Virus record (IMG/VR): IMGVR_UViG_3300030328_001641
Location: 1-28,958 of that record
Strand: one strand, 5' to 3'
Origin: a virus
DNA: 28,958 bases
Shown: piece after piece, positions 1 through 20,600 of the stretch
Layout: each line of letters begins with the position of its first letter
How positions within the stretch are numbered: position 1 is the stretch's first letter
The notes under the pieces: generated by a model
Seen by the model: only the letters and a program-made list of their open reading frames with translations
What the model was told of the DNA's origin: nothing
The model's database searches: none
Made by a program: the position numbers and the translations under genes

Positions 1-342
1 GTAGAAGATATGCGAGACTCTATACAAGCGTTCATGGAAAATGCCTGGTCTAGATCCAAGACCCGTGATGTCTACACAGGAAAAGAAATCATAGACGAGA
101 AAAGATTTGTAAGCTTACTTCAAGAAGGCGTAAGCAAACCAAAGAAAATTACGCCTCTTACAGCAAACGATCCTCTATCTATCAGAGAGACTAGAAAGTT
201 CGCAGACTTTATCGGTCAGGTTAAAGGTCAAGACGCAGTTAGAAATATAATCAACCAAGAAGAAACTGACATACTTAACTCAGCAATACGTGAACAGTTA
301 CTTAAAGATAACATTGAAAATTTTATTGCTTCAAAGATTTGA
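1..342 (+). CDS. 3' end of an unidentified phage gene (partial)
   Basis: The reading frame is open from the first base (V-E-D before the first ATG at 10) and stops with TGA at 340-342, so this is most likely the C-terminal part of a gene that starts outside the window. The visible 113 residues are charged and mostly helical, with no membrane segment and no motif I recognise. It lies on the same strand as the virion genes at the other end of the window and is followed after 17 bp by a nuclease gene. A C-terminal piece of a virion or ejection protein is possible from strand alone, but that is inference. Translation starting at the internal ATG (110 aa) cannot be excluded. Confidence 0.55.
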   Translation, partial: VEDMRDSIQAFMENAWSRSKTRDVYTGKEIIDEKRFVSLLQEGVSKPKKITPLTANDPLSIRETRKFADFIGQVKGQDAVRNIINQEETDILNSAIREQLLKDNIENFIASKI

Positions 343-948: not shown

Positions 949-2172
949 TTACTTTGATTTCGGAAGGTATACTAACTTTCCACCCTTTTTTGCGGCAGTT
1001 ATTTGATCCGTCTGCAGTAGAAATTCTAGTGCAGCCTCTAGCTCATCCTTTTTTAAATCGCTGTGCCAATCTAGCCACACTCTTTTGTGAGATATACCAT
1101 CAGGTGAGCTAGATATATACTCACCTAGCTTACGTGTGAATTCATGTATAGCGTTACGTCCTGTTAAATCATAAGAAAGGTGCATAAAAATTTCTGTCTC
1201 AGCTATAAACTTCTCCGCTTGCTTAAATGATTCTAGTTCAATCTCCTGAGACTCTGCAGATTTACCCATCTGTATGCAAAGAGCTAGTTTCTGTAGATGA
1301 ATATTCTTCCTAGCGTAGTACATGTCTAGCTTTGGGCTAGTGTTTATTCTGTTGTGTATATATGAACCACTCTCGTACCTTCTCTTATGATAAGCTGCAC
1401 ACTCTTCTGACATAGGCACTGGACCACAACGCTTACTCAAAGCTTTCATATGTTTAACCAAGTCTGCCCTAGCCTGTAACTGGTCATCAGTAAAGCCTGT
1501 GAACTGCCTCAAAAATCTAGGTTGATCTTGGTAGACTACAACAAAGCGTGAAGTAAAACCCTGAGAGATCAGATTCTCGTTGAAGCACTCACGTATGAAT
1601 GAAGGTGTTGTACCTGCAACTAGTGAAACACATACATTCTTTACGTCATCCTTACCTTTCTGCTTTGTGTAGTACCTATAGTTACGTGCATCATAGAGTT
1701 GGTTAAGCATATTAACTGTGTCTTCCGTACGCTTCTTTAAGAAGACTCCAAGCTCCTCAACAAGCATAGTGCATGATGCGTGTACGTAGTCTTTGCCTTC
1801 GTCTGTTGTGAATATCTTTGTGCATTCTTTTGCTAAGTATTCACTCAAGGCTTCTGCTGTTATGCTGTCGGCTGTAAACGGAAACAAAGGTGCGGTTTGT
1901 TTCTTGTCCTTACTCATGATCTTCAGTTCACTATCTTCTATCAAGTCTGCTATCATAGATACAACTCGACTCTTGCCGCAAGCAGGTGGGCCTACAAAAA
2001 GCATAAAGAGATTAGCGTAGATTGCATTGATGCCTTGGGAAGTCCATATCCTACGTTGTAGGCAGGTACTAATAAGAAAGTAAAATCCCCAGTCTATGTA
2101 GAGATTGGGGGATTCTAAATCTTTCAGATAGTGTCTCCACTTCTCTAAGTTCGTCACGCTAAACCTCCCCAT
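949..2172 (-). CDS. Replicative helicase-like P-loop ATPase (DUF3987-type)
   Basis: A protein of about 407 aa with a Walker A motif (GPPACGKSR), an acidic Walker B-like strand (TMLVEELGVFL), a sensor-like segment (SLVAGTTPSF) and a conserved arginine context (GFTSRFVVVY). This arrangement is typical of DUF3987-type phage and plasmid proteins related to the RecA/DnaB helicase core. No primase zinc finger or Toprim motif is visible. The likely role is unwinding DNA for the adjacent polymerase. Start choice: ATG at 2172 overlaps the polymerase end by 19 bp; a GTG at 2157 would give the 4-bp GTGA coupling used elsewhere in this operon and is also plausible; a TTG further upstream is less likely. 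The C-terminal 60 residues look like a small winged-helix-type tail (inference). Confidence 0.68.
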   Translation of the reverse strand: MGRFSVTNLEKWRHYLKDLESPNLYIDWGFYFLISTCLQRRIWTSQGINAIYANLFMLFVGPPACGKSRVVSMIADLIEDSELKIMSKDKKQTAPLFPFTADSITAEALSEYLAKECTKIFTTDEGKDYVHASCTMLVEELGVFLKKRTEDTVNMLNQLYDARNYRYYTKQKGKDDVKNVCVSLVAGTTPSFIRECFNENLISQGFTSRFVVVYQDQPRFLRQFTGFTDDQLQARADLVKHMKALSKRCGPVPMSEECAAYHKRRYESGSYIHNRINTSPKLDMYYARKNIHLQKLALCIQMGKSAESQEIELESFKQAEKFIAETEIFMHLSYDLTGRNAIHEFTRKLGEYISSSPDGISHKRVWLDWHSDLKKDELEAALEFLLQTDQITAAKKGGKLVYLPKSK

Positions 2173-4541
2173 GTATCGCCTATACAAGCTTCACTCTTCA
2201 TCTTAAATCTCTCACCTCTAGGAGAGATCAACTCGCAGTTCATTACGTTAACAGTTTCTTCGGCTACGTAGTCTGCGTGTTCTGGTGGACATTGGAGTAG
2301 TACGCTATCATGGTTATTTTGTACTATGTCCACACTCATAGTAGATAGCTTGTCATTTGGATTTTCTATTTTCTGTTGCATTTTACTAAACGTTAGGTTT
2401 GTGATTGTGCCTACAGTAGATTGAGGTACGAAGGCGTAGGCTTCCTTGTACATGGATTCTTCCACTTGTGCTGTGAACACTCGCGGATAACCAAACAGGT
2501 TACGCAGAATACCGTCTCGTCGCAATGTGTTTATAGTTTCTGTTTGCCATAGTTGTATTTCAGGGAATAATTGGTGATAAGTGTTTAAGAATCTTTTAGC
2601 TTCTGATAGTGAGATTGATACTTTACCTTCTGATTTCTGTAACATATTGATACGAAACGTAGGAGGTTTCATACCGTAGTTACTAGCGTGGCATACCATC
2701 TTGGATATAAAATAGTAACGCTTGTCTGCTGGCCAGCCGTCACTTGACTTTATTAAGGTGTCTAGTTCTTGCCACCCTTTAAGGGAAGTAACTTCTCCAA
2801 TAGGTGCAGCACAGTACTCATCAACTGAACGACCCAGTTCTGCAGACCACACGTCGGCAAAAAGACGAAGGGCAACGTACACGTGACTTTTAATACCGTG
2901 TAGAAACAGACTACGAAAGTTACCTTCATAACAAAGATAAGAAACGATAAGAGCTTCTGCACCTGACTGATCCACTTGTATAAATACTTTGCCTTCATCG
3001 GGTATAAATAGTTTACGTAATTCTTTAGGAAAATTTTGTACGTTAGTACCCCACCTATTCAATAGCCTTCGTGATGCTAGACGAAAACTTGTAGTACCCG
3101 CTAGGTTATACGCTGTCGTTACTCTTTCTTTAGTTGTTCCACGTGGAACGTATGGAGGAAACTTTAACTGACCAGACTGTTTGGCCATCTCTCTGTACTT
3201 TAAGATCAAAGTAAGTACAGGGTTAGGATGCTTCAGTCGTAGCTGCAACAAAGTCTTTTCGTTTGTAAGATCCTTTGCTGGTTTCTTGTACATCATACAA
3301 TTATACAGATAGTTTGATACCTGCTTGGGACTATTAGGGTTAAGCTCGTAGCCTACAAGTAGTCTTAGCATACGAGAAATCTGAGCACAGTATCTATTGT
3401 TATAAGCTATACGTGCATCTAGTTTATCCTTGTCGTAGTTGAGTCCTTGAAACATAGCAGTCAGGTACGGGGTAACACTGTCGTTTACCTGTTGTATGCT
3501 TTCCTTTGCGTGAAGTTGTGCAGCATGACGCTCTAGCTTTGGTTTAAGTAAGGCGAGAGCTACAACATCCTTTGCGTTATAGTGGTAGAGGGAAAGTATC
3601 TGCTGTTGATTGCGGGGTTCAAAGACTCCCTCGTTCTTGTGGTACTCTCTGTCTAGGTAGAGTGAGATACAATGACCTAGAGATTTCTCTACCTCTGGGT
3701 AAAGTCTGTGGTGTGCAAGCATGGTGTCGTAGACTTTGCGAGGTGCTGGGATACCATACTTGTATGCCATAACAAACAGATCAAACAGTGCGTTGTGTAT
3801 TACTACTGTATTGTCACGGAAGGCTACAGCCAAGGCTCTTAAAATCTTTGCAGTACCTTTACCGTTATAATAGTAAGCCTGTCTTGGTATCTCGTACATG
3901 GGTACACAGATAGAAACCTTTGTATCCCAACCATAACCAAAGCAAGTAAGCGTAAGATCGCTTGCGGTTTCTACATCAAAAAATAAATCCTTACCTTTAG
4001 TCTCAGTTAGATCTTTAACTACGTCATCTAATTCTGGATAGATTACCTCTTGTGCATCATGTATCATAGGCTTAACCAACAGATACCGACACGCTTTCTT
4101 TATATCTTTGAGTAACCAGAATCTCCAGTTCTGTCTCTTGGTTCTGCCATGAGTTACTTTATCGTCATCACTACCACCTACGTACTCTTCGTTAGGGTTG
4201 AAATAGTTCTTACGATCAAACGTATCCTGTGGCATATAAGATGCAATGTAAGTTACTCCATCTTCTATCCAAGGGTTTCCTCTTTGTTCATCCAGACCTA
4301 CGCCAGGTTTATATTGATGCAAAGATTTACGACCAAGCAGCAAGACTACGTTTGTGTTTGGTAGCAGACCTGCGTTCATAGTACTTAGCGTACGTAAGTC
4401 GCAGGATTCCCGACTAACTGTAAGGGTAGAGTCAAAAAACGCCCCCGCGTAACCGCTAAATAAAACACGGCGGTCAAAACGCGAAGGCGTGTCAATGACA
4501 ACAGTTAGACCAGAGTAAGTTTCACTCGGTTTTTGTCGCAT
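2154..4541 (-). CDS. polA-like: Family A DNA polymerase with 3'-5' exonuclease and UDG-like N-terminal domain
   Basis: A 795-aa replicative polymerase. Exonuclease motifs: Exo I FFDVETASD (D189, E191), Exo II HNALFDLF (249-256), Exo III YNAKD (D325). Polymerase motifs: TTSFRLAS and QNFPKELRKLF near 483-512, motif A DQSGAEA with D524, motif B as a lysine-containing helix ending in NYG (614-623), and motif C HDS with D745. Motif C has HDS where T7 and Pol I have HDE. Residues 1 to about 125 precede the exonuclease and resemble the uracil-DNA glycosylase superfamily: a strand VVLLLGRKSL, then RGNPW, then a hydrophobic strand where glycosylases carry their HPS motif, here SYMPQ, so the site looks degenerate. 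The start at ATG 4541 overlaps the upstream gene by 20 bp. Confidence 0.93.
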   Translation of the reverse strand: MRQKPSETYSGLTVVIDTPSRFDRRVLFSGYAGAFFDSTLTVSRESCDLRTLSTMNAGLLPNTNVVLLLGRKSLHQYKPGVGLDEQRGNPWIEDGVTYIASYMPQDTFDRKNYFNPNEEYVGGSDDDKVTHGRTKRQNWRFWLLKDIKKACRYLLVKPMIHDAQEVIYPELDDVVKDLTETKGKDLFFDVETASDLTLTCFGYGWDTKVSICVPMYEIPRQAYYYNGKGTAKILRALAVAFRDNTVVIHNALFDLFVMAYKYGIPAPRKVYDTMLAHHRLYPEVEKSLGHCISLYLDREYHKNEGVFEPRNQQQILSLYHYNAKDVVALALLKPKLERHAAQLHAKESIQQVNDSVTPYLTAMFQGLNYDKDKLDARIAYNNRYCAQISRMLRLLVGYELNPNSPKQVSNYLYNCMMYKKPAKDLTNEKTLLQLRLKHPNPVLTLILKYREMAKQSGQLKFPPYVPRGTTKERVTTAYNLAGTTSFRLASRRLLNRWGTNVQNFPKELRKLFIPDEGKVFIQVDQSGAEALIVSYLCYEGNFRSLFLHGIKSHVYVALRLFADVWSAELGRSVDEYCAAPIGEVTSLKGWQELDTLIKSSDGWPADKRYYFISKMVCHASNYGMKPPTFRINMLQKSEGKVSISLSEAKRFLNTYHQLFPEIQLWQTETINTLRRDGILRNLFGYPRVFTAQVEESMYKEAYAFVPQSTVGTITNLTFSKMQQKIENPNDKLSTMSVDIVQNNHDSVLLQCPPEHADYVAEETVNVMNCELISPRGERFKMKSEACIGDTWGGLA

Positions 4542-4797
4542 TGTCTGGCAACTCTAGCTTACCAAGTTTTTCTATTGCGATCTCTTCAGACTCCTTATTG
4601 AAATCTTTATTACCCTCGAAGTGATCCTTAGCGTAAGATAACAAAAGTGATGCACCATCTTGGAAACCGGACTTGTATCCTATAACCAAAATCTTAGACA
4701 TTAATTCTGTAACCCTATGAGCAGCAGCTTCCGACTCTTGTTTATTGTCAGGAGCTACGCTAGTTATTATTTGTTTTACCTGTTCAAGTACTGTCAT
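4522..4797 (-). CDS. Small acidic helical protein of unknown function (91 aa)
   Basis: An ATG-started 91-aa frame between the ssDNA-binding gene and the polymerase gene. The sequence is acidic and almost wholly helical, with a central stretch SKILVIGYKSGFQDGASLLL that could pack as a helical hairpin; I see no catalytic motif. It overlaps the polymerase start by 20 bp, which suggests coupled translation and a role with the polymerase. Its 5' untranslated region holds the structured element at 4812-4899, only 14 nt upstream of the ATG, so its expression may depend on that fold. Only a weak AAGAAA ribosome site precedes the start. Confidence 0.7.
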   Translation of the reverse strand: MTVLEQVKQIITSVAPDNKQESEAAAHRVTELMSKILVIGYKSGFQDGASLLLSYAKDHFEGNKDFNKESEEIAIEKLGKLELPDNATKTE

Positions 4798-4811
4798 AAT
4801 TTTCTTAAGAT

Positions 4812-4899
4812 AGAGACTTACGTTTGTTTCAGATGGAACCGAGAACCAACATCAGCTACCAGTTGTAGAATCTCTCTACACACCATACCGCAAGTCTCT
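4812..4899 (-). ncRNA. Structured RNA element, copy A
   Basis: An 88-nt element on the minus strand in the 117-bp gap between two genes. The outer helix pairs 4889-4899 with 4812-4822 (11 bp, one G-U). Inside, reading 5' to 3' on the minus strand: GT, then ATGGTG (4886-4881), a perfect 6-bp hairpin TGTAGA-GAGAT-TCTACA (4880-4864), a variable stretch with a weaker GATG/CATC helix, and GAAACA (4830-4825) two nt before the 3' strand of the outer helix. Copy B at 9072-9157 has the same parts in the same order. The hairpin stem changes keep pairing while the GAGAT loop is unchanged. The element ends 14 nt before the start codon of the next gene. Function unknown; a cis-regulator, processing signal or small stable RNA are all possible. 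Confidence 0.6.
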
Positions 4900-4914
4900 G
4901 TGTTTGAGTCTAGA

Positions 4915-5391
4915 TTAACCCAGATCGTGATCTGGTGCAGCTTCTAACCTGCGTTCCACGTTGTACCGATAGGTAGCAAGTGGCTGATTCGAGATCGGGT
5001 CGATCATAGGGTCGCCTGTGATCTCGTCCATTCTAGCCTCAGACTTAGTGTAGAGTACAGCCTTAAACGCTTTACCCTTAATACCGTCTGCGATTTCATC
5101 GTAATCATCCAGATCAAACTCTTCTGGAAGATCGAAGATCTTGTGATACTCCTTAAGACTCCGTGAAGGAATCAAAGGATAGTCACGCACTTGAACACCA
5201 CCAACTTCAACGAAACCGTTAGGTCCGTTAACTTCTGTAGGTTCAACTACCTCAGCTACAACTGCAACCATATCGTTGCCTTTGCTGCTTACTCTACGTT
5301 CTGCTTCAACAATGCGAAGCGTGTATGTACCGTTCGGTAGATAAGGTCTACCTGAACTTTCCGTTATTTCTTTTAGACTTATTGTAGCCAT
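4915..5391 (-). CDS. Putative ssDNA-binding protein (DUF669-like)
   Basis: A 158-aa beta-rich protein beginning with a conserved-looking opening in which an LPNGTYTLRIVEAE strand is followed by KGNDMVAVVAEVVEP, the pattern of DUF669-type phage proteins thought to act as single-strand-binding partners in Sak4-type recombination modules. A central acidic segment (DLPEEFDLDDYDEIADGIKG) and a return strand (KAFKAVLYTK) fit an OB-like barrel. Context agrees: the next gene upstream encodes a RecA/Sak4-like ATPase and a Cas4-like nuclease lies nearby. The ATG start has no good Shine-Dalgarno site. I assign the family from pattern and neighbourhood; a profile search would be needed to settle it. Confidence 0.6.
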   Translation of the reverse strand: MATISLKEITESSGRPYLPNGTYTLRIVEAERRVSSKGNDMVAVVAEVVEPTEVNGPNGFVEVGGVQVRDYPLIPSRSLKEYHKIFDLPEEFDLDDYDEIADGIKGKAFKAVLYTKSEARMDEITGDPMIDPISNQPLATYRYNVERRLEAAPDHDLG

Positions 5392-5473
5392 TTATTTTAA
5401 CTTTAGTTTATTGTTTAGTGTTTATTTTATTAGGTGTAACGTACACATTTCTCCTACACTCATAGGAAAATTC

Positions 5474-6130
5474 TTACTTATAATATTTGTCAATGCTATC
5501 AAGTACAGTGACAATATCGTTTGGTATAAGTTGATCATCGAACATACCCATTGGGGTCTTGGCCGATGTAACTCCATCAGTATTAGTCTGAAAAAAGTAT
5601 TCCATCTTTTCAGTCTTCTCGTTCTTACGTGTTTCAGTAAACAGTACCATTAGGAACTCCTTCTCTATCGCCCCTTCATGTACCTTACCTTGCACTTTAA
5701 TTCTACGGTGGGAAGTTTCTCCTCCTGTAACTTGTGGTATCTTAACGATGTCGTCTACTGCTGTGAATATAACTGTAGCCTTGTCGTTCTTTACGGCATC
5801 CAAGGTTGCACGAATTGTGCGATTATAGAATGACCATATATCATAGCCCTTAAACGATGCGTTAGCTAGGGTATGTACTTGTTCTACGTACTTAGTAAAG
5901 GATTCAACTACAACAGTCTTACAGTTGTCTTCTTTAAGTACCTTGTTAAGTTCCCTTGTAAAAGCGTTAGCGTTTTCTATAGGGATTATATTGAACTTAT
6001 TAGCATCTACAAATGGAAAGCCTTTGCGTTCCAAGTCTAGGATATAAGTTGTCTCAGGGTCTAGGTTACGCAAGGACGAACTCTTGCCGCTACCGCTATG
6101 ACCTACTATGGCGATTAGTGGTTTAAACAT
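5474..6130 (-). CDS. RecA-like/Sak4-type P-loop ATPase (AAA_24-like)
   Basis: A 218-aa single-domain P-loop protein. Walker A is GHSGSGKSS at 10-18, very close to the N terminus, followed by a strand TYILDLERKGFPF. A strand CKTVVVESFTKY in the middle is the likely Walker B, and a strand ATVIFTAVDDI the sensor strand. Length and motif placement match the phage AAA_24/Sak4 group, which act as ssDNA-annealing recombinases or as related DNA-handling ATPases. It stands between the DUF669-like protein and the Nmad1 gene. The downstream gap to 5391 (82 bp) contains a small perfect inverted repeat, GTGTA-ACG-TACAC at 5431-5443 or nearby, with no T-run. Confidence 0.72.
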   Translation of the reverse strand: MFKPLIAIVGHSGSGKSSSLRNLDPETTYILDLERKGFPFVDANKFNIIPIENANAFTRELNKVLKEDNCKTVVVESFTKYVEQVHTLANASFKGYDIWSFYNRTIRATLDAVKNDKATVIFTAVDDIVKIPQVTGGETSHRRIKVQGKVHEGAIEKEFLMVLFTETRKNEKTEKMEYFFQTNTDGVTSAKTPMGMFDDQLIPNDIVTVLDSIDKYYK

Positions 6131-6139
6131 TTTCTTATT

Positions 6140-6493
6140 TTATTTTGTGTGTGTTTCGGTATCAGTTCCTACGATACCGTAAAAAGGTTGTGCATCTTCT
6201 GGTTCATCTGCTGGCCACTTATCTCTAAGTAACATCAAGCCTATCAAACCATAGTTAGCTATGTCTTTAAACGTATCCTCTACAGATTCGTTTGCTGGTT
6301 CACTATCTTTATCCATTAGAAGATGAGCGAGCCTCTCTACCTTATCGTATAGCCTGACAGCTAGACCACGTACACCGAACCTACTTATGTTACGAGGTCC
6401 GTAGTCTTTCTGCTTGGCATCGAGTAGGCTTACGCACTCACCAGCTATAAAGATAGCTTCCTTACCTGCAAGCGTTTCAAGTTTTATCCTCAC
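6140..6493 (-). CDS. DUF1599 / Nmad1 (nucleotide modification associated) protein
   Basis: A 117-aa all-helical protein. The segments KQKDYGPRNISRFG, LAVRLYDKVERLAHLL and ESVEDTFKDIANYGLIGLMLLRDKW match the hallmark pattern of DUF1599 (nucleotide modification associated domain 1), a MazG-related helical family encoded by many phages. The E/D pairs in the VERL and EDTFKDIANY helices would bind metal in the MazG fold. Known members are linked to nucleotide pools or modified DNA bases, but the exact reaction is not established for this family. GTG start at 6493 overlaps the upstream stop by 4 bp (GTGA), indicating coupled translation. Confidence 0.78.
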   Translation of the reverse strand: MRIKLETLAGKEAIFIAGECVSLLDAKQKDYGPRNISRFGVRGLAVRLYDKVERLAHLLMDKDSEPANESVEDTFKDIANYGLIGLMLLRDKWPADEPEDAQPFYGIVGTDTETHTK

Positions 6494-6774
6494 TTGCTTA
6501 TGTTCCTTCCCATGATAATGCTAAAGTTTTGTACGGTCTTATCTAGTGCAGTGATCTTACTACCTAGCATATCGGCTGCAGCTAGTATTGCTGCAGACTG
6601 ACTAGCCGCATCAGGTGTTAACATACCGTTGAGGTCGTTCTCTTGTAAGGTAGCAAGAATCGTCTGACTAAGAGATTCCATTGCTGCCTTGTAACGTAGC
6701 ATAGTGAAGTTATCCATGCCGTCTTTGTAGGCATCTAGCCTAGCGTCCAATGTTTTCTGTTGTGGTTTTTCCAT
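6490..6774 (-). CDS. Helical protein of unknown function (94 aa)
   Basis: I place the start at ATG 6774 (MEKPQQKTLDAR), which has AGAAGAG five bases upstream. A TTG at 6828 would add 18 residues and lengthen the overlap with the upstream gene from 35 to 89 bp, so it is less likely. The protein is helical with an alanine-rich middle (AASQSAAILAAADMLGSKI) and could form a coiled-coil or oligomer. No family is recognised. It is coupled by GTGA overlap to the Nmad1 gene. Confidence 0.65.
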   Translation of the reverse strand: MEKPQQKTLDARLDAYKDGMDNFTMLRYKAAMESLSQTILATLQENDLNGMLTPDAASQSAAILAAADMLGSKITALDKTVQNFSIIMGRNISK

Positions 6775-6961
6775 TTTTCTCTTCTGGTTTTCTAAGTTTA
6801 TATTTTCTTCCGTAGCTTTTATCTCCAAAAAACCTACGATGGTTTAGTTCTCCGTGGTTTTCATTATCAATGCTATCCCAATTTCTATATCTGTTTACGT
6901 TAGATACAGAAACGCTAACAACTACACCATTTTCTATTCCTAGTATTCTTTGACTGCTCAT
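6740..6961 (-). CDS. Small basic protein of unknown function (73 aa)
   Basis: ATG at 6961 overlaps the stop of the Cas4-like gene (ATGA), the standard coupling in this operon. The first 30 residues are a beta-strand pattern (RILGIENGVVVSVSVSNVNRY), and the C-terminal half is rich in lysine, arginine and asparagine and probably disordered or nucleic-acid-binding. The last 35 bp overlap the next gene. No known family. Confidence 0.6.
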   Translation of the reverse strand: MSSQRILGIENGVVVSVSVSNVNRYRNWDSIDNENHGELNHRRFFGDKSYGRKYKLRKPEEKNGKTTTENIGR

Positions 6962-7872
6962 AATTGAAATTGTAGTGGGTCGTATACTTTACGTACGTAA
7001 TCCATCTGTATTATAGACTGCCTATCATCCTTGTTGTTTGCAGTACACAAGGGAGAGAAAGAACACAGGCCAAACCTAGTCTCGCATGATGCAAAGTTAC
7101 TAAGGAATATACTTTCTGGTTCTCTGTCAAGATCGTCTGAGTGTTCATCGAACTTGGCTACAAGTCTGTCTACTAGATCATCTACGTAGGCTTTAAACTT
7201 TGTTAACCTATCCTTACTGAACTCGAAGATCTCACTACGTTCAAACTTGTTCTTGTTAGAACGACCAAGGAAGATACCGTTTATCATACAACCTATGTAG
7301 TCTTCAGGGAACATCGTGTTCCATATCATATTATAAAACATAAGCTGCGGTGATACCTTATAGGCTGCGAAGTATGATGAAGTGTTGTAAGCTGCAGTTG
7401 ATTTGTGATCTACAATAACTGGCCTACCAAAGTAAGTGCCAACAAAATCTATCGTACCGCAAAAGAGTACATCCAATTTCTCTGTCTGCCTGTAAGGATA
7501 AGCGAACCGCATTTCAAGTAACGGATCTGGATCACGCTTAACCTCTAGACCTGTATCTACTTTGAAGTACTGAGTGAGTAGGTTAACTAGGTGAGCTAGG
7601 TCACGAAAGTCTTTGTCAGGTACAAGTACGTCTGCATAATGGTCTATAGCTGCGTTGATTGCTTTGTCTTTATCGTTGTCTGTGTAGTAGGACTCCAGTG
7701 CTTTATGTACTGCAGTACCATACTCCATCTTATGATTAGAGTTTCTCTTACGTAAGCCACGAAATAACATATACCATAGCTTACGTTCACACGCTGATTC
7801 TTTTATGAGGGAAGCATCTATCTTCATGATGTACTTGCCCTCCTTAGTTTTTTCTAGATTAAGTAATTCCAT
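6958..7872 (-). CDS. Cas4-like PD-(D/E)XK exonuclease with iron-sulphur cysteines
   Basis: A protein of up to 304 aa with the order of parts seen in Cas4/RecB-family nucleases: first cysteine C28 in SACERKLWY, a GTAVHKALE helix (52-60), acidic E120, the catalytic D142 in GTIDFVG, DHKST (155-159) with K157, and Q176 in the following helix. The C-terminal cysteines C263, C270 and C276 complete a four-cysteine set typical of a 4Fe-4S cluster. The likely role is 5'-3' resection feeding the Sak4-like annealing module. Start: ATG 7872 overlaps the upstream gene by 14 bp; an ATG at 7827 (MKIDASLIKE) has an AGGAGG 11 bases upstream and fits the family start well, so both are possible. Confidence 0.85.
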   Translation of the reverse strand: MELLNLEKTKEGKYIMKIDASLIKESACERKLWYMLFRGLRKRNSNHKMEYGTAVHKALESYYTDNDKDKAINAAIDHYADVLVPDKDFRDLAHLVNLLTQYFKVDTGLEVKRDPDPLLEMRFAYPYRQTEKLDVLFCGTIDFVGTYFGRPVIVDHKSTAAYNTSSYFAAYKVSPQLMFYNMIWNTMFPEDYIGCMINGIFLGRSNKNKFERSEIFEFSKDRLTKFKAYVDDLVDRLVAKFDEHSDDLDREPESIFLSNFASCETRFGLCSFSPLCTANNKDDRQSIIQMDYVRKVYDPLQFQL

Positions 7873-8074
7873 AAGTTCTCTTTAATAGTTCTGCTTCATC
7901 AAGCAGGGATTTCTTTTCTTTTACCACACGTTTCTTACGTGCAGTCTTTGGTTTAGCTAACTCTACCTTTGGTTCTGTTAATGCAAGGTACTTCTCAAAA
8001 TGCTGGAGTAATTCATCATCAGACTTAGACTCAAGCTCCTCAACAGTACAGTCTAAGAGTTCTTCGATGGTCAC
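7859..8074 (-). CDS. Small charged protein of unknown function (71 aa)
   Basis: A GTG-started frame coupled to the upstream RlpA-like gene by a GTGA overlap (8071-8074). The N-terminal 35 residues are acidic and helical (IEELLDCTVEELESKSDDEL), then a lysine-rich linker (KPKTARKKRVVKEKK) and a short C-terminal helix. The split charge suggests a small adaptor or DNA/protein-binding peptide, but no family is recognised. Confidence 0.6.
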   Translation of the reverse strand: MTIEELLDCTVEELESKSDDELLQHFEKYLALTEPKVELAKPKTARKKRVVKEKKSLLDEAELLKRTYGIT

Positions 8075-8478
8075 TTTACTTTATATTGTACGGTTGCAAC
8101 TCCCTTTAATTTATACTCAGGCATTACTTTACCTTTGTACTCCACTAGATTAGTGCCGACTAACTTACCCATCAAGTATGGCGTAAGGTCTAGCTTTCTA
8201 CCTTTGTTATATAGAGAACGTGATGGCCCTCTGTCTTGCACTACACCTACCACAACATTAGTACCATACTTTAACTCTAGCTGTGTACCAAATGGATAGT
8301 CTAGGCTTGCGATGTACGGCTTAGATGGATCAAACTTTTTACCGCTTGCCATTAAGTCACCCTTCTTGTAGCTGTCACCTTCCCCATAGTAGCTACACTC
8401 TGTAGTCTTGTATGCTTTGCCTTTGTTACTAGCCCATAGAATAGGAACGAGGGCTACGATTAGTATTAGTTTCTTCAT
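8071..8478 (-). CDS. RlpA-like double-psi beta-barrel protein, probably exported
   Basis: A 135-aa protein with a classical signal peptide (MKKLILIVALVPILWAS) and then one double-psi beta-barrel of the RlpA type: CSYYGEGD (28-35), MASGKKFDP, IASLDYPFGTQLEL (57-69), QDRGPSR (81-87) and a closing KLDLT (95-99). Members of this family include peptidoglycan lytic transglycosylases; the aspartate in DRGP and the following D of DLT are the conserved acids. It has no SPOR domain. It sits among replication genes rather than with a lysis cassette. It could act in the periplasm during infection, in lysis or in exclusion; the data do not decide. Confidence 0.8.
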   Translation of the reverse strand: MKKLILIVALVPILWASNKGKAYKTTECSYYGEGDSYKKGDLMASGKKFDPSKPYIASLDYPFGTQLELKYGTNVVVGVVQDRGPSRSLYNKGRKLDLTPYLMGKLVGTNLVEYKGKVMPEYKLKGVATVQYKVK

Positions 8479-8481
8479 GCG

Positions 8482-9054
8482 TTATCTTATTATAGTAAGT
8501 TTATCTTCAGCCGTATCAAACTCAAAGTCTGTTATCTTTTGCTTTTCTTCTAGCCACTTTATGTCTTCTGGTTTTATGACTAGGTTTTCTTTACGCCACG
8601 TGTCCATATCTTCAGCAGTTTGTAACCAAGCAAGAAGTTCTCTACGCCATACAGAAGAGTCTTTGAAATTGTACTCTAGCTCTTTAGCTTTAATCTGATT
8701 ACGAAGTGTATCTTTAAAGTATATTAAGACACCTGTATCAGTTTTCTTTAACGAAACCTGTGACCGAAGTTCAGCATAGATCGGGCCGTACTCTGTAGAA
8801 TTGTCGACGAGAAACTTAAACCCGTCCACTAACTTTACATACAGTGTGTTAGCTGTATAACCTGTCTCCTCTGAAGTTACTAATATATCTTTTTGATTGT
8901 TCAGTAGCTTATCTATAATCGGTTTTACTTTAGCTAAATTGTTTGCCGTGTAAGTTGAGCGTGAACTTACAGTACGCTCTCTTACTCTACGTAATAGTTC
9001 TGAATGATTCTTTAATTCAAGACTGCTGATATAATTATTCTCTGTTTTATCCAT
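8482..9054 (-). CDS. Protein of unknown function (190 aa)
   Basis: An ATG-started 190-aa frame ending 3 bp before the RlpA-like gene. The N-terminal half has a basic helix (SELLRRVRERTVSSRSTYTA) followed by a segment (SEETGYTANTLYVKLVDGFKFLVDN) that could be a helix-turn-helix-like unit: it reads like repressor proteins in which TANTLYVKL is a recognition helix. The C-terminal half is helical with several tryptophans (WRRELLAWLQ). DNA binding is a guess. Its leader region contains structured RNA copy B, which ends 17 bp upstream of the start codon; no ribosome site is visible in the AT-rich TTTAATTTAAT stretch. Confidence 0.65.
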   Translation of the reverse strand: MDKTENNYISSLELKNHSELLRRVRERTVSSRSTYTANNLAKVKPIIDKLLNNQKDILVTSEETGYTANTLYVKLVDGFKFLVDNSTEYGPIYAELRSQVSLKKTDTGVLIYFKDTLRNQIKAKELEYNFKDSSVWRRELLAWLQTAEDMDTWRKENLVIKPEDIKWLEEKQKITDFEFDTAEDKLTIIR

Positions 9055-9182: not shown

Positions 9183-9605
9183 TTACGCATCGTCTTGCGA
9201 TAGCATAGCTTCCATACGTTTAATGAGTTCTTTACCGTCTTCTATATCACCGTTAGCAAAGGCAGCTTTCGCTCTCTTGAATAGCTTACTAGGTGTCTCG
9301 TTGCCAGTATTTTCTGGTGTCCACTTGTCAGCATCCTCCTTAGTGTAGATTACCAAGTCAGGATACTTCTCAGTTAACTCAGCCTTTAGTTCTTCACTTG
9401 TCTTACCGTTAGGTTTCAACGAGTTCTTTACTGTAGACCGTATCCTAGCACTAACTTGTTGATTAAGTAGTGCTAGTGTTTTCTCTTCACCGTACCTATT
9501 AACTGCATCAGCAGTAGTTTTGAATTCTGGTACGTGAAACTTAAAGCCTTCCCAGAGTCCACTCTGAAAATGCTCTACCCCGTATTTTGTGTTTACTTCT
9601 AACAT
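9183..9605 (-). CDS. Protein of unknown function (140 aa), first gene after the middle promoter
   Basis: An ATG-started protein with a lightly hydrophobic N-terminal beta region (GLWEGFKFHVPEFKTTADAV) followed by helices (GEEKTLALLNQQVSARIRSTVKNSLK) and an acidic C-terminal helical part ending in a DA-rich tail. The pattern of residue spacing in the AVNRYGEEKTLALLNQQVSA segment is what I have seen in phage proteins of unknown function close to replication genes; I do not assign a function. It is the first gene downstream of the predicted sigma-54 promoter at 9697-9712 (transcript leader of about 80 nt) and is followed by structured RNA copy B. Confidence 0.7.
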   Translation of the reverse strand: MLEVNTKYGVEHFQSGLWEGFKFHVPEFKTTADAVNRYGEEKTLALLNQQVSARIRSTVKNSLKPNGKTSEELKAELTEKYPDLVIYTKEDADKWTPENTGNETPSKLFKRAKAAFANGDIEDGKELIKRMEAMLSQDDA

Positions 9606-9866
9606 ATGTTTACCTATCTGTTATTAATGCACGTATAACTGTTAGTGCAATAAATTTTTTTCTTCATTGAATTAAATTTTCAATAGTATTATATAAGCAG
9701 GAATCATGCCAACTGTTATAACTGTTGAAAAATAAATTTATAATCTTCGTTTTTGTTTGTAGAGTAGGAAGTTTGCTTCGATGCAACGACCTGCACTATG
9801 ACCAATAGCAGTATTATTGTTTCCCGTTGTAATATTCTTCACGCTTTATAACCTATCGCAACGTTT
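9606..9866 (-). other. Intergenic control region between the two minus-strand operons
   Basis: A 261-bp gap, large for this genome. It contains the predicted sigma-54 promoter (9697-9712), three TAAC(A/T)GTT-type sites (9636-9644, 9711-9719, 9720-9728), and a dyad of TTGC and GCAA arms around TCGA (about 9772-9785) roughly 60-75 bp upstream of the -24 element, the distance range of an enhancer site. The 9636-9644 site is itself nested between GCAC and GTGC (9630-9648). A TATAAT on the minus strand (9693-9688) could serve as a sigma-70 -10, but no -35 stands at 16-18 bp. No rho-independent terminator is evident after the activator gene, so some read-through from the upstream operon is likely. 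I see no gene in the gap. Confidence 0.6.
9697..9712 (-). promoter_or_regulatory. Predicted sigma-54 (-24/-12) promoter for the second replication operon
   Basis: On the minus strand the sequence reads TTGGCATGATTCCTGCTT. It has GG (9710-9709) and GC (9698-9697) separated by exactly 10 bases and matches the sigma-54 consensus TGGCACG-N4-TTGCW at 10 of 12 defined positions. The expected start of transcription is near 9685, about 80 nt before the ATG at 9605. Two tandem AACTGTT sites abut it upstream. The gene just upstream encodes a sigma-54 activator ATPase. Confidence 0.6.
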
Positions 9867-10640
9867 TTAGTACCGTGTGAAATCCAAATAGGCTGGACCT
9901 AAAACTTTGTATTGCTTTGCCAGCCTTAGTAACTCACGTACGTTTCCTTTAAGTCTATAGTTACCATCATAAACATTAGAGCATACCCTAGTCCAAAGAT
10001 CGTTTGCTTCTTCAGAGGTAAAGCCTAAGCCATAGTGATCTAGTATAAGCTTGATGTCTCCAAGTCTCCGACGCAAAGGTTTAATCTCTAGCTTGAACGT
10101 CGCTATCCTGTGGTATAGATCGTCACGGAAAGAACTGTCTAGATTATTTGTAGCAAAGACAAACCTACCTGTAAATTCTGTGTCTTCATTCTCACCTATC
10201 CTACGAAACCTACGAGTCTCTATAAGTCTAAGCAACATGGTCTGTATAGAAGGAGAGATGTCGCCTATCTCATCCATGAAGATCGTACCCTTGGATGCAG
10301 CTACTAGTAACCCCATACGATTTGATACTGCTCCTGTATAGCTTCCCTTTACATGACCAAAGAGTTCGCTCTGTATCATATTCTCAGGCATAGCCGATAG
10401 ATTCAATGCTATGAATCTACCGCTACGCCTGTTGTGTAGCCTTCGAGCTACAAGTTCTTTACCTGTACCACTCTCACCAGTAACAAGTACAGTATCATCT
10501 AGTGTCGCAAGCTTATCTGCCATCTGTAACATATGAATACAGTCTCCATCTTGTGTGGCGAACATATACTCTAGGTTAGGTTCAGCAGATTCTATAAGTT
10601 TCTTAGCTTGCTCTCTAAGTTTATCACTTTGCGACTTCAT
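9867..10640 (-). CDS. Orphan sigma-54 activator AAA+ ATPase (no receiver, no HTH)
   Basis: A 257-aa protein made almost entirely of the sigma-54 interaction (bEBP) AAA+ domain. Visible motifs: Walker A GESGTGKE (55-62), the sigma-54 contact loop as GSYTGA (99-104, consensus GAFTGA), Walker [11 protein letters not shown] (118-127), sensor [10 protein letters not shown], the arginine-finger region FRDDLYHRI (171-179), and sensor II GNVREL (232-237). Normal activators carry an N-terminal regulatory domain and a C-terminal helix-turn-helix; here about 30 residues precede the motor and about 20 follow it, so neither is present. The predicted role is ATP-driven opening of sigma-54 RNA polymerase complexes. 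ATG start overlaps the upstream gene by 17 bp. Use of the domain for a non-transcription AAA+ task is the main alternative, but the retained contact loop argues against it. Confidence 0.88.
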
Positions 10641-11505
10641 TAAACTTCTTATCCACTAAGTTAATAAACTCTTTCTCTATATCCTTTACCTTATCTACAC
10701 CAGATACATCATACCAAAAGATAAGTTCCGAACTGTCCTGCTGTATGGCTATGTCTTCTGGCTTAAGTGAACCCGATCTTATCTGTGTACCGTAACCACC
10801 TGACTGATAGTAACCGAACTTCTTGCGTATCCAATCTGGTTCTAGTTCTTGCAGGTGGAATAAAAATCTACGCATCATAAACGTAGAACATAAAGCTACA
10901 CACAACTTGTCTATGTCCATCATCTCTTGGAAGTTTTTAACCTTAACATATGTTACGTGTACATCTTCTCCTGCACGACAAGGAAACGTAGCAATGACTT
11001 CACACCCGTAGCCCAGGGTTTCTAAGTGATCTATTGCTTTGTATATTAAAGCTCCCCTATGAAAGTAACACTCCTCTGGTATACCGCAATGATTCCAACA
11101 GTTAACATACACAGTAAGTAGTCTCTTACCTGCAGCGATTACTGTATCTGTTTCCTCTTCGTCAAGGAAGTGTTCGGGACTTGCGTCTGTAACAGCAGCC
11201 TCGATGTTTATTACACCACCAGCTACACTAGGCACGAAGTCTGTTAGGTATTCTTCTAGTGGAGCTATAGAGTCTGTAACTTTCTCGTCCACCTCTATCT
11301 TTTCTAGTCTATCTATACCCCAACCGCCAGCGTCTAGCAGGAAGATGGCCTCGATCCAAGACTTTGTACCGTACCACTCGTCACTTTTAGTTTCCTCATT
11401 ACTGGAGTAGGAGTTTAGTTTTTCTACGTCACTCGTAAAAGGAGTGTCGTCTAGTCTATCGCGGAACTCATCCCACTCTAGAATTGTTTTCTTTATTATC
11501 TTCAT
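10624..11505 (-). CDS. CobT/DUF7192-like partner of the MoxR/CobS ATPase
   Basis: A 293-aa protein. Residues 40-70 ([24 protein letters not shown]) fit the opening of a phage family known to me as DUF7192, often annotated CobT-like. Residues from about 130 resemble a von Willebrand A-like Rossmann unit: a strand LLTVYVNCW, a helix [20 protein letters not shown], then strand IATF and a long helical end. The metal-site DxSxS motif of true VWA domains is not seen. MoxR-type AAA+ proteins are usually paired with a VWA protein, and here the ATPase is encoded two genes upstream in the same operon. Start ATG 11505 follows a TAAAAAGAACC leader shared with the next gene upstream. It overlaps the activator gene by 17 bp. 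Confidence 0.6.
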
Positions 11506-11793: not shown

Positions 11794-12846
11794 TTAGAAT
11801 GGTACTTCTTTATCTACTATATCCTTTACATCCTCTGGTACTTCAACTTCTTTTACCTTTGGCTTAGGATCTTCTGTCTTAGGAGTGATAGGCTTACGCT
11901 TCTCTGTGTAGACATCGAGTAGCCTACTGCGAGCGTCACCTTTCACTGATCTAAATACCGTAGCATCTAGCGTATCAAACTCATCCCAACCTGAGATAGC
12001 TTGCAACTTAATGCACTGGTCTAGGTTACGACTAGAGAATATGATACGTATCTTCTTGGACACTGCATACTTTCTCATACTTTGGAAACGGTCTACGAAT
12101 TTATCAAGCTGTACCTCAGTAATGTAAGGCTTGTCTACTCTAGCGTAGGTTTGTTTGATCCAACCTTTTTCTGCTGCAGTATCATAAGGCCACTCTATAC
12201 ATACGAACTCATTGAGTAAGGCTACATCGAGAGCGTTACGTCCTACGTATTCTCTGTCTGGACCTAGACCCCAAGTGTTTGCGGTACACATGAGTCTACA
12301 GTCAGGGTGTACCTCTTGCATACCGTACGGCATAAAGATATGACCGCTTGTTATACCTTTAATAGTCATAAGTACATTAGAGTTGCCGTTGTCCATCTCA
12401 TCTATACAGACTAGACCTCCCTCTTGTATCACCTTAGTGAACACACCGGGTACGTAGTTTCCACTGGAGTTGTTGAACCCTATAAGATCATGAGTTGCTG
12501 TCTGCTTGTTCACTTGTCGTATAGCATAGTGCTTACAACCTAGTGCTTTCGATACAGCATGAGTTACCCTAGTCTTTCCGCTGCCTGTAGGTCCGATAAG
12601 CATGGCAGGTAGACCTGCTGCTAGTGTACTTATCAATGGCTTAGTCTGATAGTGCTGTCCCTCTACGGTACTATGATTAGTAACGTTGTGCTTTATGATC
12701 TGTTTGATCTCTAGTTTTTGCGGAGCTTGATGCTGTATCGCATCAACTCTTTTCTCTAACTCTTCAAACCAAAGTTTAAAGTTTGGTTCTACTATATCTG
12801 CTACCTCTTTGGATAATCCAGTTACCCACTTATTTTCTTCTGTCAT
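11794..12846 (-). CDS. MoxR/CobS-like AAA+ ATPase
   Basis: A 350-aa AAA_5-type ATPase. From the ATG at 12846: helical N-terminal region to about 65, Walker A GPTGSGKT (85-92), Walker B VCIDEMD (146-152), sensor I in CTANTWGLG with N190, and a GRNALDVALLNEF segment (202-214) where CobS and MoxR have their arginine-finger helix. The order is that of CobS, the AAA+ subunit of cobaltochelatase, and of MoxR chaperones; phages carry many such genes with unknown clients. The C-terminal 70 residues are charged and disordered. ATG 12846 is preferred over a start at 12900 because it reduces overlap with the upstream gene from 71 to 17 bp and has AAGAACC just upstream. Confidence 0.82.
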   Translation of the reverse strand: MTEENKWVTGLSKEVADIVEPNFKLWFEELEKRVDAIQHQAPQKLEIKQIIKHNVTNHSTVEGQHYQTKPLISTLAAGLPAMLIGPTGSGKTRVTHAVSKALGCKHYAIRQVNKQTATHDLIGFNNSSGNYVPGVFTKVIQEGGLVCIDEMDNGNSNVLMTIKGITSGHIFMPYGMQEVHPDCRLMCTANTWGLGPDREYVGRNALDVALLNEFVCIEWPYDTAAEKGWIKQTYARVDKPYITEVQLDKFVDRFQSMRKYAVSKKIRIIFSSRNLDQCIKLQAISGWDEFDTLDATVFRSVKGDARSRLLDVYTEKRKPITPKTEDPKPKVKEVEVPEDVKDIVDKEVPF

Positions 12847-13144
12847 TGTTTTGGTTCTTATCTTTGTTTTTCTTCTTGTACTGTATACTGAATGAATCAA
12901 TTGCTGTATGAATCATGTCTACGTTTTTGTCTGTCTTAAAAACTATACAGTAAAAATCTTCTTCACCTATTTCTATATCTACTACGTTCTCTAAAGAGTA
13001 GCCGTTAATTCTACCTATCTCTGCAAGTTTTTCTAACGCACTAGGTATCATATCAATCAAAGATTCTAAGGTATCGTGATTGTCTACCTGTACTATGTGA
13101 GTATGGGGTAGGTCTATGTATTCTTTATCTTCTGGATTGTTCAT
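12830..13144 (-). CDS. Protein of unknown function (104 aa)
   Basis: I place the start at ATG 13144 (MNNPEDKEYI), which forms ATGA with the stop of the upstream small membrane protein. A start at 13210 would read through most of that gene in another frame and is unlikely. The protein is alpha/beta with strands HTHIVQVDN and DVEIGEEDFYCIVFKTD-like segments and ends in a strongly basic tail (KKKNKDKNQNN). No family recognised. Confidence 0.68.
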   Translation of the reverse strand: MNNPEDKEYIDLPHTHIVQVDNHDTLESLIDMIPSALEKLAEIGRINGYSLENVVDIEIGEEDFYCIVFKTDKNVDMIHTAIDSFSIQYKKKNKDKNQNNDRRK

Positions 13145-16320: not shown

Positions 16321-16348
16321 ATTATATCACAAGATAGGTTTATATCAA
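16321..16348 (-). promoter_or_regulatory. Strong sigma-70 promoter with extended -10
   Basis: On the minus strand: -35 TTGATA (16348-16343, 5 of 6 to TTGACA), a 16-bp spacer, and -10 TATAAT (16326-16321, 6 of 6) preceded by TGA, giving the extended TGnTATAAT form. The start of transcription falls near 16314, about 25 nt before the ATG at 16287. It lies downstream of the terminator at 16384-16413, so this operon is insulated from the gene at 16430-16966. It is the best sigma-70 match that I found in the window and probably drives the early genes including the sigma-54 activator. Confidence 0.75.
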
Positions 16349-16383: not shown

Positions 16384-16413
16384 AAAAAAACCCCGGCATA
16401 ATACCGGGGTTTT
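16384..16413 (-). terminator. Rho-independent terminator (bidirectional form)
   Basis: Stem CCCCGG (16391-16396) and CCGGGG (16404-16409), with a 7-nt loop. It is flanked by seven A on the left and four T on the right, so on the minus strand the hairpin is followed by a seven-base T-run. AAAA/TTTT pairing can lengthen the stem to 10 bp. It lies 17 bp after the stop of the 16430-16966 gene. Confidence 0.85.
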
Positions 16414-17197: not shown

Positions 17198-17454
17198 CTC
17201 AACAATTATTCCCTCTTACTTTAATAACTGTTAGGGGTTTCTTCACTTGCTTGCAAAGTCCTGGACTAAGTACAAGCTTGTTATCGTTCTCTAGGTTTTT
17301 CATAATTCTACCCTACGATATTTTCACGTAGAGTACAGAGCGGAAGACCCCCCAGAAAGAAACCAGAACCAGAACTATCACCCTCTCTGGGAAAATGACA
17401 AAATTTACAATTGGGCTAACAGTTAGAAAAAACATTCTTAACTGTTGGACAAGT

Positions 17455-17470
17455 TGGCACGTAAGGTGCT
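17455..17470 (+). promoter_or_regulatory. Predicted sigma-54 (-24/-12) late promoter for the virion operon
   Basis: The sequence TTGGCACGTAAGGTGCTA has GG (17456-17457) and GC (17468-17469) exactly 10 bases apart. It matches TGGCACG-N4-TTGCW at 11 of 12 defined positions (G for the first T of the -12 box). The bases before it also fit the extended consensus. The expected start is near 17481. The TAAC-type sites at 17416-17426 and 17439-17447 lie directly upstream. A GAGAGG ribosome site for the ORF at 17486 would lie upstream of that start, so that ORF may need another promoter. Confidence 0.65.
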
Positions 17471-17485: not shown

Positions 17486-17623
17486 ATGGATATGAAAGAA
17501 AAAGTTAGTTTTGAGGGGTTCTCTAAGAGAGCTGAGGAAATATGTCGGAGTACTGCACTTATAAGGCACTACTTCAAAAAACAAAAAGAGATATGGCAGA
17601 CAAAGGAAAAAAACACAAAGTAG
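17486..17623 (+). CDS. Small basic protein (45 aa) ahead of the virion operon
   Basis: A 45-codon frame (MDMKEKVSFEGFSKRAEEIC onward) with a good ribosome site, AGAGAGG at 17473-17479, six bases from its ATG. This is the best Shine-Dalgarno sequence in this part of the genome. The product is helical and basic (IRHYFKKQKEIWQTKEK). It overlaps the start of the long gene by 31 bp in another frame, in the manner of translational coupling. No family is recognised. The predicted sigma-54 start (near 17481) would remove its ribosome site, so it would be read from an upstream promoter or not at all. Confidence 0.5.
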   Translation: MDMKEKVSFEGFSKRAEEICRSTALIRHYFKKQKEIWQTKEKNTK

Positions 17624-20600
17624 GTTTTCGTGAGTTAAAAAAATTACGATCTCAAAACTCTAAATACTATAGACCGAATGCAGAAAATTTAGTTGATGGT
17701 GTTTATCCTCCTTTTACCGGGCCTTTAGTTATAAACCCAAGATCAGAAGATGCTGCTAAAGTAAGTGATCTTCCTTTTGTAACTATACAGCAGCCTGAAG
17801 GTATTTGGGTTAAAGATAAAGCAGAGCCAAGTCAAATTGTTATGCCATTAACACCTTCTGGTGCTTATAACCCCGAAGAAAGTGATTACGTATCTCCAAA
17901 CAATACAGGTTTAACAGGTCGAAACTTAGCTTATGCCCGTGGTAGTCGTGTAGTACCTGCTAGACCTATGAAAGGTGTACCAAATGTTTTACCCCCAACA
18001 ATAGACCCAAAGTATGGACCTGCAACAAATTTAGACGGTACGCCTGTAGAAACAAAAGGCCCAGAGTTCTACAGACAAAAACCAACAAACCAACTTATTC
18101 AAGAAGCTAACCCTTTCAGAGATGGCTTAACTAAGCTTGTAAGTACATTGTCAAAATTACCTACCTCTAACGTTGGTTTAGTATCTAAAGGTTTAGACAT
18201 GGCAGGAATACCTAATCCTATACCAGCAATTACAAGACCTATCAGTAATTTATCAGCAAATGCCACAGAAAAAATTGGCCAAGGTATAGGAAACGCTATA
18301 AACGAATTACGGCAACCTTGGCCTCAACAAAATTTAAGATCACCAACTAGAAAAGGAGCAACTGAAGCTGCACAACAAAAAAGAAACCAACTTGTTCAAC
18401 CTCTGTCAATAGCACGTCCTCCTCAAACAATTGTTCTACCGACCCCAAAAGGACCATCAATTAGGTTAGCTAATGAAGGAGAAAAAGCTGTTAGAGAAGC
18501 TTTTTGGGAAGCTGGAAGAGACATATTACGCAACTGGACAGGTACTCCACCAGAAAAAACTTTAACTGGAACGCCAGAAGTTTTACCTCCGCAAAACATA
18601 CTCGATAACCCAGCTAACCAAGTAACAGACCCATCTGTAGCTACTCCAAAGCTTCAAGGCTGGTCGTATACTGGTCCCGGTGGTTACGCAGATCAAAGAT
18701 GGAGATTCTCAGGAGCAGGTCAAGGTGCTCCTGTAATAACAGATAAACCTGCTGTAACTACACCACAAGTAGTTACAGACCCTGTAACAGGCAGAGTCTC
18801 TATTCAAGAACAACCTACAACATGGTGGTCTAATAGACTCGGTTATGACACAGCACAGACTATAACTGATCGACCTGCTCAGACGGTTACGCCAGTAGTG
18901 GGTACAAATATAGGAGGTACACTAGTTGATGATGTAAAACCTAATTGGATACCTCCTAATGCAACAATAACTGAAACAGGAGGTTACGATGTTCCAGCTA
19001 CAGACAAATATCCCGGCGGTGTAGTAGTAGAAAAAGTTGATAACGGTTGGATTATTAAAGACAAAACTAAACCACTTGACGACCCTATAATTGTTCCAGA
19101 TGCAGCAACACAAGCTGAAATAGATTCTTTAATAGCTCAGGGTAATGCTGACTTAGATGCAGCACAAAATCCAGTAGGAGGTAACAATATAATAACAGAT
19201 CCTATAACAGGTGTGGGAGGTAATACAGGTGTAGGTACAGGCAGTAACCTTGGTGGTGTTGGTGACAGTGCTTATAGTTTACCTATAGGTGGAGCAGGAA
19301 CAGGAGGTAGCGGCTTTATAGTAATTAATGACCCTGAAAAAGGTCCATCTACGTTAGAGCAGTTTATGGGTATGAGGTACGACAGAGACTTTATGGAAGG
19401 TGGAGATCTTGCTGGGAACCTTGGTCGTACTCCATCTGGAGGCCGAGGGTCAACTACTGGACCGTCAACATACGAAGAATGGTTAAACTTCAGAAGAGAT
19501 CCAGATGTTAAATACGAAGGTACTGGAGAAAGGATATTTGAAGATCTTATCTCAGGTATAGAAAAAAGTACTGGCCCAACAAGATTTGCTGAAGGTCAAC
19601 AGTACGGGGAAAAGGGTTCTCTAGTAAGAACTTTAGGTACATTCTATGATTGGCTTAGAGGTTGGAGCGATGAAAACTTTAAAATGTGGGAAGACAAAGG
19701 AATACCGTCAGAATTAAGTGGGCGTAATCCTTTTGGCCCAGACTACGCTAACGCCTTAAAAAACATAAAAGACATTTTAAAGAACCCCAGCAATATAAAA
19801 ACACAAGAGTACGGTGATCTACAGATTCCCGGCTTACTGTATGCTGCAGGTCTTATATCACAATACGGATCGCAAGCAGGTATACCTCTAGCTGCTTTAA
19901 ACTTGTCTAACGATATAATGAGTTCTGTTAACAATATATTTGCAGAGCATCCAGAAATGGCAGGTAATCCGATACAAGATGCAGTACACATGGCATTTTG
20001 GGTTCCCGGTAAGGTAGCAAAAGAAGCTTGGAATAATACATTAGGTAAAGTTTTACCTAAAATACAAGACAGTACAATTGCAGATAAGTTTAAAAACGCA
20101 ACACTAGGTGAGTTACGCAATCCACCTAAACCTCAACCTAACGTACGAGTATCTATAAAAGGCAAAGAAGTCGGCTTAGGGCAACCGTTAACTAGACCCA
20201 CTGGAGGCATAACTGGAAATGTTACACCGTTACCTAAGCCTCCTAGAACAACAGCACCTCTAGGTATGCCACCTGCGGGCAGAGGAACTACTCCAGAAGG
20301 AAGATCAAAAACACGACCTACTAGAGGTCAAGGACAGTTAAACCCTTTATCAGGTGATCCTGCGTATAGCGGCAATGAAGTTGAGTACAAAGGTGATCCA
20401 ATCTCGTCAAAAGGAAAAGATGAAGAAGGTTCTGTGACAGGCAAGTTTAAACGACCAATTACAGGTACGCCAGTAACTCAAAGTGATGAATCTCAAAGAG
20501 ATGATAAGGGACCAGATACAACAGATATAACAACCCCTAATAATACAATAATAATTGATCTTCCAGTAGACGAATCTAATAGACCTATAAACGATGATAT

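Follow-up and report, generated by a model that had tools for sequence, protein, structure and literature searches.

We propose that a large family of uncultivated phages expresses its replication and late genes through host sigma-54, using a small AAA+ activator of its own. The best model for this system was a phage transcription switch on sigma-54, a variant of phage-encoded activators. Very likely, the motor is produced from an early sigma-70 operon and would act from solution to activate E-sigma-54 at the middle and late promoters of the phage. That the whole family has wired its middle and late expression to host sigma-54 via its own constitutive, DNA-binding-free AAA+ activator, an ATP-gated cascade that is unreported to our knowledge, we regard as likely. 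The window, i.e. the whole stretch of DNA analysed, is the 28,958-bp record of an uncultivated virus and is a phage contig. Genes for DNA polymerase, primase/helicase and nuclease were read leftward, and those for terminase and capsid rightward. Its genes, predicted promoters and other features were as follows.

949–2187 (−), primase/helicase, P1 operon
949–9054 (−), remainder of the P1 replication operon, in the same order in relatives
2154–4541 (−), DNA polymerase, P1 operon
4915–5391 (−), gene with a weak DUF669 match, P1 operon
5474–6130 (−), AAA_24 gene, P1 operon
6958–7872 (−), PD-(D/E)XK/Cas4-like nuclease, P1 operon
8482–9054 (−), c4 gene, P1 operon
9183–9605 (−), 140-aa gene of family c9 that opens the P1 operon, function not assigned
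9636, 9710 and 9719 (span 9636–9727), TAACWGTTA-type putative operators around P1, in the window's clade only
9696–9711 (−), predicted sigma-54 promoter P1, TGGCATGATTCCTGCT, 2 mismatches, GG/GC spacing intact, intergenic between activator and replication operon
9867–10640 (−), predicted motor-only sigma-54 activator of 257 aa with a bEBP AAA+ domain, closing the leftward early operon (Pfam, PDB profiles, AlphaFold2/Foldseek)
10624–11505 (−), DUF7192/phrog_1909 gene overlapping the activator start, restricted to the window's clade and G030
11794–12900 (−), CobS/MoxR-like AAA_5 gene
16321–16348 (−), putative early sigma-70 promoter, TTGATA-N16-TATAAT plus a TG ahead of the −10 element (11/12), upstream of the operon in which the activator comes last
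16387–16413 (−), intrinsic terminator-like hairpin between the 16430–16966 gene and the early operon
17417 and 17439 (span 17417–17447), two TAACWGTTA-type putative operators just upstream of P2, in the window's clade only
17455–17470 (+), predicted sigma-54 promoter P2, TGGCACGTAAGGTGCT, 1 mismatch, with a T in front as in YTGGCACG, intergenic, 87 bp upstream of where the rightward genes begin
17542–21270 (+), 1242-aa gene that opens the P2 late operon, with GAGGAAAT preceding its start
21274–27727 (+), remainder of the late operon
21274–21705 (+), small terminase-like gene with a weak HTH_23 match
21689–23215 (+), large terminase, called by PHROG
23212–24891 (+), portal-like gene, by position
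25077–26213 (+), late-operon gene
26327–27727 (+), HK97-fold major capsid protein, by AlphaFold2/Foldseek to Pan3, DEV and N4 capsids

The open reading frame at 9867–10640 starts with ATG and encodes 257 aa. It matched the Pfam family Sigma54_activat (PF00158) over residues 32–184 with an E-value of 8.1e-49 (166 bits, cut-off 20.2). The complete set of motor motifs described in an earlier sequence-only reading was intact. Among 22 family members, the Walker A motif (G55-E-S-G-T-G-K61), the Walker B residues D123-E124 and the arginine fingers R172 and R178 were invariant, as were G232, N233 and R235 of GNVREL (232–237). In the L1 loop (GSYTGA, 99–104), G99 was invariant and A104 nearly so. The window's GSYTGA is a form of the GAFTGA L1 loop, which contacts sigma-54, and its departure from GAFTGA (GSYSGA in some relatives) counts against the sigma-54 model; the loops of the family comprised GSYTGA, GAFTGA, GSFTGA, GAYTGA and GSYSGA. 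Profile comparison against solved structures ranked FleQ, NtrC-type activators, ZraR, LuxO and PspF at the top. The best Foldseek matches of the AlphaFold2 model (mean pLDDT 89) were the AAA+ domains of FleQ, NtrC1/4, FlrC and PspF. Profiles and predicted fold, the comparison with PspF and NtrC for which the sequence-only reading had called, thus supported placement in the NtrC/PspF clade of sigma-54 AAA+ activators and not in another AAA+ clade.

That reading had also described the protein as a motor alone, and no receiver, GAF or HTH domain was matched in the Pfam search. Only approximately 30 residues precede the motor, and no N-terminal receiver domain was found. Since the activator start overlaps the stop of the upstream gene (10624–10640) and 155 bp of non-coding DNA follow its own stop, a receiver or HTH domain has not been split off. 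An artefact or truncated gene was ruled out, as HTH-less copies of 235–328 aa were conserved in all family contigs examined. The activator and one distant family member matched PHROG 7998 (6.8e-34 and 4e-38), which is listed there as function unknown, without a recorded link to sigma-54 promoters.

The activator is a core gene of the phage family. A search of viral contigs with its sequence returned 97 relatives, and the phage ones were HTH-less and approximately 235–330 aa long. Twenty-four contigs fetched in full shared with the window a DNA polymerase, primase, Cas4-like nuclease, terminase and capsid, and the activator was present in 25 of 25. The c9 gene was found in 20 of these 25, adjoining P1 in nearly all of them, and relatives carried a gene of 900–1600 aa at the position equivalent to 17542–21270. 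Further contigs were fetched by DNA polymerase or capsid protein alone, which avoided selection on the activator. Sigma54_activat was detected in 17/24 of the polymerase-fetched contigs (the seven without it were ≤21.4 kb) and in 24/27 of the capsid-fetched contigs (the three without it were ≤24.2 kb). Every searched family contig longer than approximately 29 kb contained the activator. HTH loss held across the family in all sampled copies, with no HTH_8 in the 48 phage contigs searched. No phage RpoN (sigma-54 DNA-binding domain) was found in 30 contigs searched, and host sigma-54 is therefore presumably used. A search for a single-subunit phage RNA polymerase (PF00940) gave no match, and the control genomes gave none either. 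In a phylogenetic tree, the phage motors were placed apart from nine HTH-bearing regulators, with one long-branch exception (L363); because the deep branches were weak, a single origin of the phage motors is not established.

Cultured phages were considered as carriers and rejected, as the GenBank matches were mostly bacterial-type regulators in phage-labelled records, and only MT121960 had a short divergent copy. This human-gut phage (MT121960.1, Phage DP SC_2_H4_2017) encodes a 304-aa short activator homologue (locus L276). No sigma-54 site at ≤1 mismatch was found in MT121960, which may be a divergent relative that uses other promoters. GenBank phages with a related terminase or polymerase were <35% identical. 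Host scans of genome contigs with the DNA polymerase and capsid alignments returned either none or two contigs, in a proteobacterial and an archaeal MAG, which were probably misbinned.

While the sequence-only reading had the protein class right, it did not say that the contig is a phage and missed the likely targets, P1, P2 and P3, in the phage genome itself. P1 and P2 of the window are intergenic and correctly oriented, with intact GG-N10-GC spacing. Within the family, predicted sites occupied three conserved places: P1 followed directly on the activator and preceded the replication operon, P2 stood ahead of the terminase-structural operon and P3 ahead of the gene for the major capsid protein. 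Placement was counted at ≤2 mismatches after removal of near-duplicates, with the expectation taken from dinucleotide shuffles. A site was present at the P1 place in 21 of 27 non-redundant regions (0.46 expected), at the P2 place, before the first terminase-operon gene, in 9 of 10 (0.11 expected) and at the P3 place in 14 of 18 (0.40 expected). In the capsid-chosen set, 39 of 45 non-redundant regions had a site upstream of the capsid gene (0.96 expected). Genome-wide counts at ≤1 mismatch, near-copies included, were 69 against 3 for the reversed pattern in 47 contigs, and 25 against 3 and 78 against 7 in two further contig sets. In eleven GenBank phages that have a related polymerase or terminase and lack the activator, the counts were 5 against 4, with no perfect site; sigma-54 sites in these eleven were at background level only.

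A chance match was rejected as the explanation of the promoters. The scan of the window alone at ≤3 mismatches was not significant (30 against 26.6 expected), whereas conservation in the family was above expectation. Since that loose scan was at chance level, the case for the promoters rests on position and conservation. The consensus of 75 non-redundant sites was TTGGCAYG-N5-TGCT, with strong conservation only at the −24 and −12 elements and their immediate flanks; because GG and GC were the basis for picking the aligned sites, selection fixed these four positions, and the others much less so. P3 was missing in the window's own clade, where the capsid gene sits in the P2 operon. No good site was found in the tested places of G029, G094 and G095, nor any after the activator gene of G025. 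These gaps weigh against the model, as do the two mismatches in the window's own P1. Replication genes lie downstream of P1, and downstream of P3 lies the capsid family c15, with a predicted HK97 fold nearest to the Pan3, DEV and N4 capsids (AlphaFold2/Foldseek, moderate-confidence model, pLDDT 74). By position and pattern, predicted −24/−12 promoters thus stand before the phage replication, terminase-structural and capsid genes.

How a motor of this kind might find its promoters was considered next to their upstream DNA. The sequence-only reading had offered action from solution or a separate DNA-binding partner encoded nearby. The former was favoured, given an HTH domain absent family-wide and no fixed upstream element across the 75 non-redundant promoters. 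In the G033-type clade, the activator stop can lie approximately 20 bp before P1. With the missing element, this spacing indicates that a bound enhancer seems not to be required. The partner was not supported for the family as a whole, and is possible only in the window's genus, where TAACWGTTA-type sites abut P1 and P2 and a clade-specific partner or repressor could use them. In the window and G002, G006, G014, G016, G017, G018 and G069, such a 9-mer precedes the −24 element at both P1 and P2, and another copy lies approximately 75–85 bp downstream at P1 and approximately 22 bp upstream at P2. Within the window's clade, 38 of 109 matches were intergenic, although intergenic DNA makes up a few percent of the bases. 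The pattern suggests clade-specific operators of a putative DNA-binding protein. A phage or host protein on these operators might then recruit the activator, or repress P1 and P2 until relieved, and we give such tethering a fairly low chance: the intergenic enrichment and the abutment on the −24 elements speak for it, while the element was not seen in G033-type or other clades, the G033-type spacing and the lack of a fixed element argue against it, and no candidate binding protein was found among the tested genes near the activator. The DUF7192 gene is not an obligate partner, since it occurs only in the window's clade and G030.

In the switch that we prefer, host sigma-70 RNA polymerase would transcribe the leftward early operon, in which the motor gene comes last. 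Transcription would start at the extended −10 sigma-70-like candidate at 16348–16321 (−), behind the terminator. A similar site lies upstream of c24 in G014 and weaker ones occur in G002 and G005; the count of such sites alone was not above chance. The motor would form a ring and, by ATP hydrolysis, remodel host E-sigma-54 closed complexes at the phage −24/−12 promoters. Activation of P1 would turn on the replication operon, that of P2 the terminase-structural operon and that of P3, in most of the family, the major capsid gene. We infer ATPase activity, sigma-54 contact, open-complex formation, the timing and an RpoN-bearing host. The motor has no domain for binding DNA and so probably works from solution, at high concentration, like the truncated DctD250 and the natural FlgR. 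The AAA+-only DctD250 can switch on many sigma-54 promoters in vivo when no enhancer is present, more weakly than enhancer-bound NtrC (PMC3844500), and FlgR of Helicobacter and Campylobacter is naturally HTH-less and enhancer-independent (PMC9696931). These precedents make activation from solution realistic, and high expression together with gene dosage could offset its lower efficiency.

The same promiscuity of motor-only bEBPs means that host sigma-54 promoters should also respond (PMC3844500), and the motor could in that case serve mainly host sigma-54 genes, as a means of host takeover or an auxiliary regulator, with the phage sites secondary. We consider this improbable, as three conserved, correctly oriented promoters stand before phage replication and capsid genes family-wide and the activator is core rather than sporadic. 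Conversely, the phage promoters could serve host bEBPs and so sense the nitrogen or stress state of the host, the phage motor being a modulator; any active host bEBP could in principle use the same E-sigma-54 closed complexes. This is very improbable for a phage with its own full-motif motor, adjoining P1 in most contigs, which would hardly entrust a late promoter that it strictly needs to host signals alone. That the protein is a remodeller of the MoxR or another AAA+ type, working with the DUF7192 and CobS/MoxR-like genes just upstream in the window's clade and playing no part in transcription, is scarcely credible and was rejected, given the GSYTGA and GNVREL motifs, the fold matches, the stronger match to Sigma54_activat (8e-49, 166 bits) than to AAA_5 (6e-11, 43 bits), and the absence of both neighbours from most other clades, where activator and promoters stay.

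Several further observations concern the gene layout. The CobS/MoxR-like AAA_5 gene and the DUF7192 gene form a pair adjoining the activator in the window's clade. A giant protein of approximately 1500–2400 aa (family c2; window 1–342 (+)) ends the late operon and was common to 23/25 contigs; two examples searched had no Pfam or PHROG match. Upstream of P2, at approximately 17330–17410, lies a conserved block, CCAGAAC..ACTAT.ACCCTCTCTG..AAAATGAC.AAAA, with recognisable versions in the distant clades G033 and G038. It may be a cos/pac site, since it adjoins the terminase operon. The non-coding spacer from the activator stop to P1 (9712–9866 (−)) contains pieces of tail-fibre head repeats (TTGNNNTAIGHSAG, NVAIGYKA) resembling those in the c42 tail-fibre genes of relatives, and similar DNA occupies the same place in G010, G014, G016 and G017. 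The spacer is possibly an archive of recombined tail-fibre cassettes. In G021, G023 and G047, the DNA polymerase reading frame was in two parts with other ORFs between them, a split that points to an intron or to the insertion of a homing element.

Sigma-54 promoters give no transcription before an AAA+ motor acts on them. A phage that supplies this motor itself thus gains tight control and needs to make neither a polymerase nor a sigma factor. If the model is true, the sigma-54 route is a new phage strategy, host range would be limited to rpoN bacteria and loss of rpoN would confer resistance. Additionally, the unannotated family PHROG 7998 would gain a function, and the replication and late operons of an otherwise little-known phage family, uncultivated and found in many metagenomes, would be predictable from sequence. 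A natural motor-only bEBP with defined cognate promoters would also be usable as an orthogonal expression tool.

Known phage takeovers of transcription rely on new polymerases, on sigma or anti-sigma factors, or on activators of the sigma-70 class. Early proteins of T4 (MotA/AsiA and gp55), SPO1 (gp28), phage P2 (Ogr) and Mu (Mor/C) redirect host RNA polymerase to middle or late promoters, as an early phage protein would here. In contrast to the AAA+/sigma-54 mechanism proposed here, those switches use sigma-70-type polymerase or phage sigma factors, with no ATP-driven remodelling. The open-access literature searched yielded no report of sigma-54 activators encoded by phages or of phage late genes driven by sigma-54, and we know of no precedent for a sigma-54-based phage transcription switch. 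Canonical enhancer-bound bEBPs such as full-length NtrC and PspF place a C-terminal HTH on an upstream enhancer, whereas the phage protein has neither HTH_8 nor a fixed upstream element at its predicted promoters. The motor-only architecture is shared with PspF1-275, the PspF AAA+ domain, and with DctD250; those two were truncated in the laboratory, whereas the phage protein occurs naturally and is fixed throughout a phage family. FlgR likewise is a sigma-54 AAA+ motor without a DNA-binding domain, but it has an N-terminal receiver under FlgS and serves flagellar genes, whereas the phage protein has no sensory domain and would serve phage operons. As a protein, it adds a new motor-only member to the bEBP clade, comparable to FlgR minus the receiver.
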